45,494 bases of DNA from Propionicimonas sp. (GTDB taxonomy: Bacteria; Actinomycetota; Actinomycetes; Propionibacteriales; Propionibacteriaceae), in the NCBI GenBank assembly GCA_030158185.1, contig JAOATP010000162.1, positions 1-45,494 on the forward strand, read 5' to 3'. Made by a program: the position numbers and the translations under genes. Position 1 is the first letter of the stretch. Each line of letters opens with the position of its first letter. The notes under the pieces were generated by a model that was not told the origin of the DNA, did no database searches, and saw only the letters and a program-made list of their open reading frames with translations. Below, piece by piece: positions 1 to 11,979 of the stretch.

Positions 1-1640
1 GTGCCGAGCTCAACTACAACATCGAGGTCGTCTCGCCCGAGGACGAGGACCGCGAGCTGCTGGAGAGCTTCGACATCGAGTTCGGCGAGAACGCCGGCGA
101 CGAGGAGGACCTGGCGCCCCGGCCCCCGGCCGTCACCGTCATGGGTCACGTCGACCATGGCAAGACCAAGCTGCTGGACGCGCTGCGCAACGCGAACGTC
201 GTGGCAGGCGAGCACGGTGGCATCACGCAGGCGATCGGTGCCTACCAGGTCACCAGCGCACTCGACGGTGTCGAACGCAAGATCACCTTCATCGACACCC
301 CGGGCCACGAGGCGTTCACCGCCATGCGTGCCCGTGGTGCGAAGTCGACCGACATCGCCGTGCTGGTGGTGGCTGCCGACGACGGTGTGATGCCGCAGAC
401 CATCGAGGCGCTCAACCACGCCAGGGCCGCCGACGTACCGATCGTCGTTGCCGTGAACAAGATGGACAAGGAAGCAGCCGACCCGGTCAAGGTCCGTGGC
501 CAGCTCACCGAGTACGGCCTGGTGCCGGAGGAGTACGGCGGCGACACGATGTTCGTCGACGTCTCCGCGACAGCCAAGACCGGCCTCGCAGAGCTGCTCG
601 AAGCCATCCTGCTCACCGCGGACGCGTCCCTGGACCTTCGGGCCAACCCCGAGATGGAAGCCCAGGGCGTGGCCATCGAAGCGCACCTCGACAAGGGACG
701 CGGCCCCGTGGCCACCGTCCTCGTCCACCGCGGCACGCTCCGCACCGGGGACTCGATCGTCGCCGGCTCCGCCTATGGTCGCGTTCGCGCCCTGATCAAC
801 GATCAGGGTGAGACCGTGGACGAGGCTCCGCCGTCGATGCCGGTCCAGGTGCTCGGCCTGACCTCGGTTCCCGGGGCGGGTGACAACTTCCTTGTCGTCG
901 AGGACGACCGGATGGCTCGCCAGATCGCCGAGAAGCGGGAGGCCCGTCAGCGGGCAGCCATGCTGGCCAAGACCACGCGTCGCAAGACGCTCGACCAGCT
1001 GTTCGAACAGCTCGCGAAGGGCGAGGCGCAGGAACTGCGACTCATCCTCAAGGGCGATTCGGCCGGTGCCGTCGAGGCCCTGGAGGACGCGCTGCTGCAG
1101 ATCGACGTCGGCGACGAGGTCGACCTGCGGGTCATCGACCGCGGTGTCGGTGCCATCACCGAGACCAACGTCAGCCTCGCTGCCGCTTCGGATGCCGTCA
1201 TCATCGGCTTCAACGTCCGTGCGCAGGGCAAGGCGACCCAGCTGGCAGACGCCGAGGGTGTCGACGTCCGCTACTACACGGTCATCTACGCTGCGATCGA
1301 CGAGGTCGAGGCGGCCCTGAAGGGCATGCTGAAGCCGATCTTCGAAGAGAAGGTCCGTGGCCAGGCCGAGATCCGGGACATCTTCCGGAGCTCCAAGTTC
1401 GGCGTCATCGCCGGCTGCATGGTCATCGACGGCACGATCCGGCGCAACGCCAAGGCCCGACTGCTGCGGGACGGGGTGGTTGTCGCAGACACCTCCATCG
1501 CCTCGCTCCGTCGGGAGAAGGACGACGCAACCGAGGTCCGCGAGGGCTTCGAGTGCGGCATGACGTTGCAGAACTTCTCCGACGTCCGGGTCGGCGACAT
1601 CATCGAGACCTTCGAGATGGTGGAGAAGCCGCGCGACTGA
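1..1640 (+). CDS. infB: Translation initiation factor IF-2, 3' part (5' end outside window)
   Basis: IF-2 is the GTPase that brings initiator tRNA to the small ribosomal subunit and promotes subunit joining. The reading frame is already open at base 3 and 545 residues are visible; the long N-terminal region lies upstream of the window. The GTPase domain is complete: G1 GHVDHGKT at about nt 144-167, the G2 stretch [12 protein letters not shown]3 DTPGH at nt 294-308, G4 NKMD at nt 456-467 and a G5-like SATAKTG. Domains II, III and the tRNA-binding C-terminal barrel follow, ending at a TGA. A methionine at nt 141 also opens this frame, but it falls directly before the G1 loop, so it is internal and not the start. 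The GITQAIG motif has Ala where His is usual (GITQHIG). A strong hairpin and then rbfA follow, the common infB-rbfA order. Confidence 0.97.
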
Positions 1641-1711: not shown

Positions 1712-2149
1712 ATGGCCAGTCCGCGCTACGCCAAGGTGGCTGAACAGATCAAGGTGGTCGTCGCCCAGATGCTGGAGCGACGGATCAAGGACCCGCGCCT
1801 CGGGTTCGTCACCATCACCGACGTCCGTGTCACGGGCGACGGGCGGGAGGCAACCGTCTTCTACACCGTGCTCGGGGACGCGGACGCCCGCGACGAGAGC
1901 GCGCTGGCGCTGCACTCGGCCACCGGTCTGCTGCGGTCGACCGTCGGCAAGCAGCTCGGCATGAAGTTCACCCCGACGCTGGCCTTCGTGCTGGACGCCG
2001 TCGAGGAGGACGCCGCACAGATCGAGGACGCGCTCGCACGAGCCCGAGCCATCGACGAGGCGGTCGCTGCCCGAGCCGTGGGTGCCACCTACGCCGGTGA
2101 CGCCGACCCGTACAAGCATGCAGAGGAAGTCGAAGAACTCGATGACTGA
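1712..2149 (+). CDS. rbfA: Ribosome-binding factor A
   Basis: RbfA is a small KH-fold protein that binds the 30S subunit and helps late 16S rRNA maturation, notably under cold stress. The 145-residue product carries the family core [18 protein letters not shown] at about residues 28-45 followed by an ATVFYTV strand, and ends in an acidic tail (EEVEELDD). The length is slightly above the bacterial norm because of that tail. The ATG start is set by GAGAGGAA about 7 bases upstream. It sits after infB and before truB, the usual maturation cluster. Confidence 0.96.
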
Positions 2150-2165
2150 ACCCTCCCTCCACCCG

Positions 2166-2211
2166 CAAGCTGTGAGTTAGTCGCCGATGACGGCGGAAAA
2201 GTCACAGCTTG
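2166..2211. repeat. Nested palindrome, family A, copy 1
   Basis: Outer arms CAAGCTGTGA (2166-2175) and TCACAGCTTG (2202-2211) are perfect 10-bp complements. Inner arms CGCCG (2182-2186) and CGGCG (2191-2195) flank the loop ATGA. A closely related element lies at 11134-11181 between pnp and dapB. The second arm ends at the G of the proposed truB GTG start, so the element occupies the rbfA-truB gap. Confidence 0.75.
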
Positions 2212-3098
2212 TGACGGGTGATGGGCTGGTCGTGGTGGACAAGCCTCAGGGCTGGACGTCGCACCAGGTCGTCGGCCGCTGCCGCCGGCTGCTCGGAACC
2301 AGGAAGGTCGGCCACGCCGGAACCCTCGACCCGATGGCGACCGGTGTGCTGCTGGTCGGCGTGAACCGCGCCACGCGCCTGCTGGGCCACCTGGCAGGAC
2401 ACGACAAGACCTACACAGCGACGATCCGGCTCGGCCAGGCGACCGTCACCGACGATGCAGAGGGCGACGTCGTCTCGGCGCCCGGAGCTGCCGGCATCAC
2501 CCTTGACGCCGTCGTCGCAGCGCTGCCGGCCTTCACCGGCCTGATCAGCCAGGTCCCATCGTCGGTCTCCGCCATCAAGGTGGCAGGCAAGCGGGCCTAC
2601 GCTGTCGTGCGTGCCGGGGGAGAGGTCGACCTCAAGGCACGCGAAGTGACCGTGAGCCGGTTCGACCTGCTGGCGTCGCGCGAGGAGCAGGTGGACGGCC
2701 TGCCCGTGCTCGACCTCGACGTGGTGATCGACTGCACCTCCGGCACCTACATCCGGGCTCTGGCCCGCGACCTCGGTGCCACCCTTTCCTGCGGAGGCCA
2801 CCTGACAGCCCTGCGTCGCACGCGCGTCGGCGCGTTCAGCCTCGACCTGGTGGCGCTCGACGCGGAGGGGCTCGCCGGTGAGGCCGCGCCGCCGCTGCTG
2901 GGCATGGCGGCGGTCGCCCGCCGCGCCTTCGACGTCGTCGAGGTCGATGCAGACCAGGCCGGCGACATCGGGTTCGGGCGGGCCCTCGCACTGACCGTCC
3001 CCACCGACCCCACGGCGCTGGTGCACGCCGACCGGCTGCTCGCGCTGTACCGTCCGGGTCCTGACGGCACGGCGATCCCGCTGGCCGTACTCGCCTGA
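2211..3098 (+). CDS. truB: tRNA pseudouridine(55) synthase TruB
   Basis: TruB converts U55 of the tRNA T-loop to pseudouridine. The product shows DKPQGWTSH near the N terminus and the catalytic motif GHAGTLDPMATGVL, whose Asp is the nucleophile. A later SGTYIRALARDLG block matches the family, and the C-terminal part corresponds to the PUA-like region. An ATG 24 bases upstream (2187) opens the same frame but lies in the loop of palindrome A, where the other copy of that element has AGG, so it is probably accidental. The GTG at 2211 gives VTGDGLVVVDKP, which matches where actinobacterial TruB proteins start. Neither site has a convincing ribosome-binding sequence. Length is 295 residues from 2211 (303 from 2187). 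Confidence 0.95.
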   Translation: MTGDGLVVVDKPQGWTSHQVVGRCRRLLGTRKVGHAGTLDPMATGVLLVGVNRATRLLGHLAGHDKTYTATIRLGQATVTDDAEGDVVSAPGAAGITLDAVVAALPAFTGLISQVPSSVSAIKVAGKRAYAVVRAGGEVDLKAREVTVSRFDLLASREEQVDGLPVLDLDVVIDCTSGTYIRALARDLGATLSCGGHLTALRRTRVGAFSLDLVALDAEGLAGEAAPPLLGMAAVARRAFDVVEVDADQAGDIGFGRALALTVPTDPTALVHADRLLALYRPGPDGTAIPLAVLA

Positions 3099-5183: not shown

Positions 5184-5220
5184 AGGGGCAAGAAAGGGGA
5201 CAGTCCCCTTTCTTGCCCCT
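5184..5220. repeat. Perfect 18-bp inverted repeat (family C), likely also the pnt terminator
   Basis: Arms AGGGGCAAGAAAGGGGAC (5184-5201) and GTCCCCTTTCTTGCCCCT (5203-5220) are exact complements around one central A. It begins 10 bases past the pntB stop, so on the minus strand it could end transcription of the pnt operon. Its near-symmetry and its further GGGGGGACAAAG flank at about 5172-5183 look more like a dispersed palindromic element than an ordinary terminator. Confidence 0.7.
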
Positions 5221-8677: not shown

Positions 8678-8714
8678 GACCAGCCGGTGACGGGATTCCC
8701 GTCACCGGCTGGTC
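8678..8714 (+). terminator. 17-bp hairpin between rpsO and pnp
   Basis: Perfect arms 8678-8694 and 8698-8714 (GACCAGCCGGTGACGGG and its complement) around an ATT loop. There is no T-run after it (GTGCTTACAC). In E. coli the same gap has a terminator and an RNase III site that controls pnp; position suggests a similar attenuating or processing role, but this is inference. Confidence 0.6.
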
Positions 8715-8865
8715 GTGCTTACACACCCAAGAAGAAGCCCCGACCGCGGTCTGGTTTGGTCCTCGGTAGTGACTTTCGGGCAGCCCGGTTCGCCGGCCAC
8801 CCGCGAGCCTCGATCGAAGACCGGGCACGCCGCGGTGACGGGGCGGAAAACCGAAAGGAATCCGC

Positions 8866-11073
8866 ATGGAAGGTCCTGACCTTCGTTTCACCGAAGCCGT
8901 GATTGACAACGGCACCCATGGCAAGCACGTCATCCGCTTCGAGTCCGGGCTGCTGGCAAAGCAGGCCAACGGCAGCGCTGCTGTCTACCTCGATGGCGAC
9001 ACGATGCTCCTCGCCGCAACGACCGCGGCCAAGAACCCGCGTGACGCCATCGACTTCTTCCCGCTCACCGTGGACGTGGAGGAGCGGATGTACGCCGCCG
9101 GCCGCATCCCCGGCTCGTTCTTCCGCCGCGAAGGCCGCCCGTCCGAGGGCGCCATCCTCGCTGCCCGCCTCACCGACCGTCCGCTGCGTCCCTGTTTCGT
9201 CAAGGGCCTGCGCAATGAGGTGCAGGTCGTCATCACGGTGATGGCCCTCAACCCGAACGTCCGCTACGACGTGCTGGCGATCAACGCCGGCTCCGCGTCC
9301 ACCACGCTGGCCGGCCTGCCCTTCAGCGGCCCGATCGGTGCCGTCAGGATCTCCCTCATCGGGGATGCCTGGGTCGCCTTCCCGACGGTCGAGCAGAGCG
9401 CCGGAGCCACCTTCGAGATGGCCATCGCCGGTCGCGTCATGCCTGACGGCGACGTCGCGATCATGATGGTCGAGGCCGAGTCCACCGAGGCCACCTGGGA
9501 CCTCGTCCGCTCCGGCCGGACCGCTCCGACCGAAGAGGTCGTCGCGCAGGGCATCGAGGCGTCCAAGCCCTTCATCAAGGCGCTGTGCGACGCGCAGGCC
9601 GAGCTGGCAGCGATGCTGCCGAAGGCCGTCTCGCAGTTCCCGGTGTTCCTCGACTACCAGCCCGACGTGTTCGACGCTGTTGCCGAGGCCGGCACCGATC
9701 GCCTGAAGTCGGTCATGAGCATCTCCGGCAAGGCAGAGCGTGAGACCACCACCGAGTCCCTCCTCGCCGACCTGAAGGCCGAGCTCGACTCGCGCTTCCC
9801 GGGACGCGACAAGGAGATCACCGGTGCGTTCCGCGCGCTGACCAAGAAGGTCGTCCGTCACAAGACGATCACCGAGCACGTCCGCATCGACGGTCGTGGC
9901 GTTGCGGACATCCGCACGCTGTCCGCCGAGGTCGGCGTCCTGCCCCGCGTCCACGGCTCTGCGCTGTTCCAGCGTGGCGAGACCCAGATCCTTGGTGTCA
10001 CGACGCTGAACATGCTCGACATGGAGCAGAAGCTGGACACGCTCGACCCGCAGACGACCAAGCGGTACATGCACAACTACAACTTCCCGCCCTACTCCAC
10101 CGGTGAGACCGGTCGGGTCGGTTCGCCGAAGCGCCGCGAGATCGGCCACGGAGCGCTCGCTGAGCGCGCCCTGCTGCCGGTGCTGCCGAAGCGGGACGAG
10201 TTCCCCTACGCGATCCGCCAGGTGTCCGAGGCTCTCGGCTCCAACGGCTCGACGTCGATGGGTTCGGTGTGCGCATCGACCCTTGCCCTGCTGAACTCCG
10301 GTGTGCCGCTGAAGTCGCCGGTCGCCGGTATCGCCATGGGCCTGATGAGCGAGGACATCGACGGGGAGACCAAGTACGTCGCCCTCACCGACATCCTTGG
10401 CGCTGAGGATGCCCTCGGCGACATGGACTTCAAGGTCGCCGGCACGAAGGACTTCGTGACGGCCCTGCAGCTGGACACCAAGCTCACCGGCATTCCTGCC
10501 GAGGTGCTGGCCGGTGCACTGCTCCAGGCTCGTGACGCACGGCACACCATCCTCGAGGTGATGGCCGAGGCCATCGACATCCCCGACGAGATGAGCCCGT
10601 ACGCCCCGCGGATCATCAGCATCCGGATCCCCGTCGACAAGATCGGCGAGATCATCGGCCCGAAGGGCAAGATGATCAACCAGATCCAGGACGACACCGG
10701 CGCGAACATCTCCATCGAGGACGACGGCACGATCTACATCGGTGCGGACAACGGCGAATCGGCCGAGGCTGCCCGCGCGATCATCAACGCCATCGCCAAC
10801 CCGATGATGCCGGAGAAGGGCGAGCGCTACCTTGGCACGGTCGTGAAGATCATGCCGTTCGGTGCGTTCATCTCCCTGATGCCCGGCAAGGATGGCCTCC
10901 TGCACATCTCCAAGCTGCGTCCGCTCGCCGGCGGTGCCCGCGTGGAGAACGTTGAGGACGTCGTCAGCGTCGGCCAGAAGATCCAGGTGGAGATCTCCGA
11001 GATCGACGAGAAGGGCAAGCTGTCCCTGATCCCGGTCGTCGAGGAGAAGGAAGCGGTTCCGGCCGAAGCCTGA
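8866..11073 (+). CDS. pnp: Polyribonucleotide nucleotidyltransferase (PNPase)
   Basis: PNPase degrades RNA 3'-to-5' using phosphate and can also add tails in reverse; in actinobacteria it is a main exonuclease. The 735-residue product has two RNase PH-like domains ([18 protein letters not shown] in the first; [13 protein letters not shown] and [18 protein letters not shown] in the second), a KH domain ([16 protein letters not shown]) and an S1 domain ([17 protein letters not shown]). Start ATG with GAAAGGAA six bases upstream. It follows rpsO by 200 bases that contain a strong hairpin, and is followed by a good terminator. Confidence 0.98.
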
Positions 11074-11089
11074 GCAATCTGATCGCCAG

Positions 11090-11122
11090 CCGGCGTCCCG
11101 CTTCGTGCGGGGCGCCGGTTTT
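11090..11122 (+). terminator. Rho-independent terminator after pnp
   Basis: Arms CCGGCGTCCCGC (11090-11101) and GCGGGGCGCCGG (11107-11118) pair over 12 bp with one G-U around TTCGT, followed by TTTT. It lies 17 bases after the pnp stop. Confidence 0.85.
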
Positions 11123-11133
11123 GCGTCTCACTC

Positions 11134-11979
<846 letters not shown>

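Follow-up and report, generated by a model that had tools for sequence, protein, structure and literature searches.

A dispersed palindrome family of Propionibacteriaceae and its probable link to genes for AbiEi-like proteins with a predicted nuclease domain

The two palindromes that lie at gene junctions in the 45,494-nucleotide stretch of DNA analysed here (the window) belong to a dispersed family of near-perfect palindromes, termed family A, and this family very probably belongs with genes for a protein that joins an AbiEi-like DNA-binding region to a predicted nuclease domain (AbiEi-DUF559). The reading that we favour, and consider probable rather than firmly established, is that such a protein recognises a palindrome of which the window elements are dispersed copies, palindromes and protein together forming a two-component system that resembles the REP/RAYT pairs. 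The combination of repeat and nuclease is apparently undescribed; in the open-access literature no relevant description was found for DUF559 or AbiEi genes with extragenic palindromes, and nothing relevant for extragenic palindromic repeats in Propionibacteriaceae or for REP-associated tyrosine transposases in Actinobacteria.

Results

Two matching palindromes at gene junctions

A first-pass annotation of the window had noted two elements of like layout (2166-2211 and 11134-11181) with outer CTGTGA/TCACAG arms and a four-base loop, placed at the rbfA-truB and pnp-dapB junctions. Both are present at these positions with these arms and loops (ATGA and AGGA), and Pfam matches confirm the junctions. 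The inner arms given there, TCGCCGA/GACGGCG, are not reverse complements of each other and have to be replaced by an inner stem CGCCG-NNNN-CGGCG. The window has two occurrences of CTGTGA-N(18..40)-TCACAG where 0.05 are expected, a count reached in none of 100 shuffles, and the folding of each strand of each copy lies at z -4.9 to -7.2 relative to shuffled sequences. An Rfam scan gave no match of either element to any family at gathering score.

Table 1. Features around the two palindromes (positions in the window; outer arm limits of the palindromes are approximate, cores are 38 bp long)
Feature	Position	Strand	Remarks
Palindrome copy 1, family A	2164..2213		23 + 4 + 23; core 2170-2207; rbfA-truB junction
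Palindrome copy 2, family A	11134..11183		core 11140-11177; between the pnp terminator and dapB
rbfA	1712..2149	+	Pfam RBFA, E 1.4e-29; 14 bp between stop codon and copy 1
truB	2187..3098	+	most probable start ATG 2187, in the palindrome loop, or GTG 2211, in the right outer arm
pnp	8866..11073	+	Pfam
Intrinsic-terminator-like hairpin and TTTT of pnp	11090..11122	+	by eye; distinct from copy 2
dapB	11242..11979	+	start 59 bp after copy 2

The left arm of copy 1 carries an in-frame TAG (2178-2180) in the truB frame. Hairpins like the pnp terminator were also seen by eye 3' of pnp in several relatives that are without copy 2. Upstream of pnp, the window further contains an Actino-pnp leader RNA (8755-8825; Rfam RF01688, 52.1 bits), immediately preceded by a hairpin (8681-8711).

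Family A in its own genome and in relatives

The genome from which the window comes (G000; 2.84 Mb in 236 contigs, 80% complete) contains the outer-arm pattern at 17 places, 16 of which are family members by eye and one (C52) is not, and the reversed control pattern at none. With a covariance model built from 15 copies, at least 20 distinct copies were found (best-strand E <= 1e-7), a count that leaves out three weak hits on one strand only (E 0.1-0.5). The members are palindromes of about 50 bp built as 23 + 4 + 23, longer than first noted, with the typical sequence CRCAAGCTGTGAC-TTTTT-CGCCG-ANNT-CGGCG-AAAAA-GTCACAGCTTGYG.

In a collection of named genomes, the exact pattern matched 18 stretches, 16 of the MAG SJ317 and two of Chersky_165, both Propionibacteriaceae, and no viral contigs. 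Matches to family A were present in 13 of the 60 genomes searched (own included), and the model R2 matched at least 10 of 293 genomes of the order at E <= 1e-5. Copy numbers amount to at least about 30 in G009 and at least about 12 in G015, an assembly of one contig that is 98% complete. The arm sequences are the species' own and are laid on a common frame: among 39 copies of the genus, 19 of 24 pairs have changed on both sides, 88.6% of the cells pair and none of 500 shuffles reached the covariation score, in an alignment that mixes subfamilies and whose rows were chosen as palindromes. The earlier suggestion of a dispersed element, drawn from two copies, is thus borne out, as searching the genome with a covariance model brought up further copies, the base pairing covaries across species and relatives carry the family.

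Eight scored sites could be matched between G000 and G001, and the copies at these sites have an identity of 0.74, compared with 0.76 for unmatched pairs and 0.78 and 0.88 within the two genomes. Copies at matched sites are no more alike than others, which would be consistent, at the level of sequence comparison, with either concerted evolution or renewed insertion at identical places. In G009, family copies come in pairs and once in a triplet, about 80-98 bp apart (L100-L104), an arrangement like that of BIMEs. G000 and G012 contain a second family of palindromes, whose arms are built around ACTTGTCAGAATCT...AGATTCTGACAAGT (L092, centres 4508 and 9994; L108, centre 7356).

Palindromes beside AbiEi-DUF559 genes

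On contig C149 of the own genome, a gene lies between two family-A copies, which are more decayed than most free copies; its product matches AbiEi_4 (E 1.4e-6) and, weakly and below the cut-off of the model, DUF559 (E 0.014). The second AbiEi-DUF559 gene of this genome has no such palindromes. Within the genus, there are 28 homologue loci in 17 of 30 genomes, and by one scan 11 of these stretches contain a palindrome of similar build and mostly other arms. A profile of 15 proteins (A6) was positive in 70 of 97 genomes of the order, and 70 loci of the order were chosen regardless of palindromes (30 returned and 40 from the upper part of the matches listed), of which 69 were analysed and one, shorter than 3.3 kb, was dropped.

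At these 69 loci, 45 palindromes with a score of at least 13 lie within 200 bp of the gene (1.36/kb), seven lie farther away (0.039/kb) and none inside it; 33 loci have at least one near palindrome, ten of them on both sides, and 36 have none. A coarse first test had not separated the sets (22/90 versus 19/112 gene 3' ends), its control loci being centred on pnp and mostly contributing the pnp terminator or leader hairpin. The near density of the pnp-centred control at threshold 13 (1.23/kb) is close to that of the DUF559 loci, its hairpins being largely terminators and the Actino-pnp hairpin. Density alone therefore does not carry the linkage, and because the pnp control is so dense, the claim rests on the other gene ends in the same loci, on the likeness of flanking pairs and on dispersed copies.

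Compared with neighbouring gene ends in the same loci, palindromes are found at 15/55 AbiEi-DUF559 3' ends versus 2/65 (p 1.4e-4) and at 16/56 5' ends versus 4/96 (p 3e-5). The genus loci gave 9/23 versus 1/27 for 3' ends (p 0.002), the corresponding 5'-end test being not significant (p 0.07). Where the gene is flanked on both sides (12 loci at threshold 12, ten of the order and two of the genus), left and right palindromes share an identity of 0.92 as against 0.50 between loci, and the lowest identity within a locus is reached by 0.4% of the between-locus pairs.

Palindromes specific to individual genes are dispersed as well. When 23 of them were searched in 20 genomes, at least 16 had dispersed copies in their own genome, at no fewer than 70 places (one of them only about 1.2 kb beyond the gene) and with up to at least 11 per family; for the other seven no dispersed copy was among the matches listed. 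Among the same listed matches, hits in other genomes were those of the G019 family in G003 and of the G032 family in G124, both sister species with a matching gene, and one incomplete match in G043 to the G088 palindrome. Nine of 20 regions fetched contain a palindrome above the scan threshold, and the ten palindromes in them, one of which is of different sequence, lie between tandem (five) or convergent (five) and never between divergent genes.

The link between palindrome and AbiEi-DUF559 gene is well supported, though not universal. G015 and G028 carry copies but nothing that matches the gene at E <= 1e-8, and G009 has only a distant homologue, beside which no palindrome was found. Relatives carry the gene at the metG locus together with different palindromes or with none at all. 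A profile scan for DUF559 remnants across the window, L001-L017 and L035-L111 recovered only the C149 gene (L093) and its counterpart in G001 (L058, L094), and searches of plasmids and viral contigs brought up no relatives.

The protein joins an AbiEi-like region to a predicted nuclease

The protein is predicted to consist of an N-terminal AbiEi-like DNA-binding region and a C-terminal nuclease domain of the Vsr/I-Bth0305I type. In the AlphaFold2 model (pLDDT 86.7), residues 186-289 resemble 3hrl (Z 12.1, rmsd 2.6, 92 aligned), I-Bth0305I (Z 11.8, rmsd 2.7, 96 aligned) and Vsr (1cw0; Z 9.5, rmsd 2.6, 100 aligned), and residues 1-184 as modelled resemble AbiEi (6y8q; Z 8.8, rmsd 4.2, 174 aligned). 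The PADLOC AbiEi model matches all 15 members and Pfam DUF559 eight of the 15 at E <= 0.1; five acidic or histidine residues (D220, E231, D233, H238 and D247) are invariant in the 15 proteins. In one family of the order (f3), CCWGG stands at the dyad in five of the seven loci with near palindromes, and elsewhere in one locus (L294). CCWGG is the sequence context in which Vsr repair acts, hinting that mismatches or methylated cytosines might be processed at the hairpin centre.

The AbiEi promoter holds a pair of 23-bp inverted repeats with a 3-bp gap, to which the protein binds (PMC7319586), and this spacing resembles the 23 + 4 + 23 of family A. The first-pass annotation had offered a conserved protein-binding site as an alternative to a REP-like element, and since the linked protein is AbiEi-like and AbiEi binds such paired repeats, this proposal is probably right in part.

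Placement and presence at orthologous junctions

Ten of the 20 copies of G000 lie between convergent genes, nine between tandem genes (one of these was assigned from an ORF that overlaps and could be convergent), one at a contig end and none between divergent genes (0 of 19 scorable), compared with 18 convergent, 92 tandem and 20 divergent among 130 gene pairs. The stop codon of the neighbouring gene is often supplied by the element (...AAGCTGTGA, reading Lys-Leu-stop). The left flanks of copies (e.g. L003, L016 and L017) tend to be rich in C and the right flanks rich in G; transcripts converging on the hairpin would thus each run through C-rich sequence first, perhaps in connection with Rho.

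At the rbfA-truB junction, G000, G012 and one contig of G027 have a copy, a second contig of G027 has what looks by eye like a decayed one, and none was seen in 15 other aligned loci; two short loci of G018 showed no truB motif in this comparison. In most loci without the element, rbfA and truB overlap or almost abut, G002 and G022 having other intervening sequence, and in G000 the element closes the old truB frame. The L014 site has a copy in G000 and G002, and G001 and G016 align across the junction without one. In 20 relatives, copy 2 was not seen in those parts of the pnp-dapB locus that were inspected, which hold other repeats or none; in several of these loci the two genes are separated by 1-6 kb, inspected in part. 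Repeated GGTAGCGAAG motifs in the spacers of G028 and G015 (L170, L171) represent another repeat family with a GTAG motif.

Genes lie between two palindromes at the PGM-PhoU, metG-kinase and HAD-YchF loci, and in G015 and G028 the matching PGM-PhoU region has a single palindrome and lacks the bounded genes. Three stretches bounded on both sides by family palindromes encode a TetR and a membrane protein (L092, 6122-7281), a TetR and a 137-aa protein (L094, 3181-5378) and a short ORF (L105, 3634-4268), with stop codons inside some of the bounding palindromes. A reading of such units as gene cassettes was not taken further, as the DUF559 gene of the metG locus also occurs in relatives without family-A copies.

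These data bear on two explanations that do without movement by the nuclease. The palindromes might be nothing but sites of an AbiEi-like regulator, the dispersed copies being its regulon or decoys. The operator of AbiEi, with its paired 23-bp inverted repeats and 3-bp gap (PMC7319586), is indeed close to 23 + 4 + 23, and the N-terminal part of the protein matches AbiEi. However, the 3' end of the gene is flanked as often as its 5' end, free copies are, unlike operators, absent between divergent genes, and relatives differ in whether the same junction has a copy, which leaves this explanation unlikely.

Less likely still, and in our view improbable, are bidirectional terminators or mRNA-end hairpins that are selected and homogenised by gene conversion without a dedicated enzyme. 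Such hairpins would account for the excess of convergent placements and for the strong covariation, but the copies listed have no T-run after the stem, their T and A runs sitting inside it, and copy 2 follows a separate terminator-like hairpin. Moreover, arms matched to one flanked gene and the pairs around the DUF559 gene would be left unexplained.

REPs, RAYTs and other transposases

The first-pass annotation had called the elements perhaps REP-like and proposed to look for a linked REP-associated tyrosine transposase gene. As an analogy the likeness is fair: the palindromes are extragenic and dispersed, with at least 20 copies in a genome that is 80% complete, a number to be set beside the usually more than 100 copies of classical REPs (PMC2817692). 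It does not extend to membership, as the hairpin foot has no GTAG or CGTC tag, the outer arms reading CRCAAG.TG on both sides, and the Y1 genes go with other repeats. As described in PMC3733652, GTAG REPs have RAYTs as their linked enzymes, MITEs are associated with transposases that recognise their ends, and no partner is known for CGTC REPs.

That a resident Y1/RAYT-type transposase mobilises the palindromes in trans, as true REPs, is highly improbable. A Y1 gene does exist in 14 of 30 genomes of the genus, the own genome included, and a few weaker palindromes lie near such genes (two at a score of at least 13 in ten loci). Yet the own and the eight other Y1 loci displayed carry repeats of the GGGGACGG/GGGGACAG type and in none is the HUH/Y1 gene flanked by the family-A palindrome; at a score of at least 15, no palindrome lies near ten Y1 genes as against 33 near 69 DUF559 genes, and the copy-bearing genomes G009 and G027, both copy-rich, have no Y1 match. 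The supposed RAYT link therefore fails, with the Y1 loci carrying other flanking repeats. A perfect palindrome in an intergenic region of the window (5187-5217; 15-bp arms, GGCAAGAAAGGGGAC-A-GTCCCCTTTCTTGCC) is probably a repeat of the TIRYT/RAYT type, because its GGGGACAGTCCCC centre matches a repeat beside a Y1 gene of G012. Equally remote is a MITE from a DDE-transposase insertion sequence with fused CAAGCTGTGA ends, for which a short palindrome present or absent at matched sites would be fitting, but no target duplication is evident by eye in the aligned junctions, where spacers align poorly.

Discussion

We return to the palindromes as recognition sites of the AbiEi-DUF559 protein. The gene unit would be palindrome-gene-palindrome, and free palindromes would be its non-autonomous relatives, moved by the nuclease as we infer. 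The AbiEi-like part may bind the two arms of about 23 bp or the extruded hairpin, the nuclease would cut at or near the dyad, and repair would duplicate a palindrome or overwrite it with the sequence of another one. In this way, each nuclease would spread and homogenise the family matched to it, much as REPs depend on RAYTs, with insertions surviving mostly at gene ends, where they could supply stop codons and an mRNA-end hairpin.

Beyond this, we tentatively raise the possibility, on which we would lean slightly to the sceptical side, of a separate class of two-component mobile DNA in which each AbiEi-like reader fused to a Vsr/homing-type nuclease would be bounded by, and specific to, a palindrome family of its own that it copies around the genome and homogenises, the fold of the AbiE antitoxin serving as the targeting module of a selfish element. 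If true, this would account for the near-private, concertedly evolving intergenic palindromes in Actinomycetota, assign a role to AbiEi/DUF559 genes that are currently regarded as antitoxin-like or lack a known function, and illustrate how a repeat can replace the start (truB) or the stop of a gene. A further, unrelated enzyme class would also offer a testable partner for orphan palindrome families.

Comparison with known systems

Rickettsia palindromic elements are palindromes that enter or extend coding frames, and from their description the likeness to family A lies in this occurrence of palindromes in coding frames. The C-terminal domain has its predicted fold in common with Vsr and the homing endonuclease I-Bth0305I; here, however, it is part of a free-standing, palindrome-flanked gene and fused to an AbiEi-like region. 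AbiE type IV toxin-antitoxin systems share the N-terminal part and the paired 23-bp inverted-repeat operators (PMC7319586), in contrast to which the present protein has a fused nuclease domain and palindromes at both gene ends and dispersed. TIRtrons, whose TIRYT (Y1) genes carry GGGGWSAS repeats (PMC3733652), occur in the same genomes and fit the repeats beside the Y1 genes, both repeat and enzyme being unlike those of family A. Closest in organisation are the REP/REPIN-RAYT systems, with which family A shares short dispersed extragenic palindromes, near-private families and copies of the palindrome on either side of a gene that encodes a DNA enzyme. It differs from them in that its palindromes are near-perfect, about 50 bp long, without a GTAG/CGTC foot and low in copy number (about 20 in G000 and about 30 in G009), and in that the enzyme is an AbiEi-DUF559 protein, predicted to be Vsr-like, in place of the HUH tyrosine transposase.
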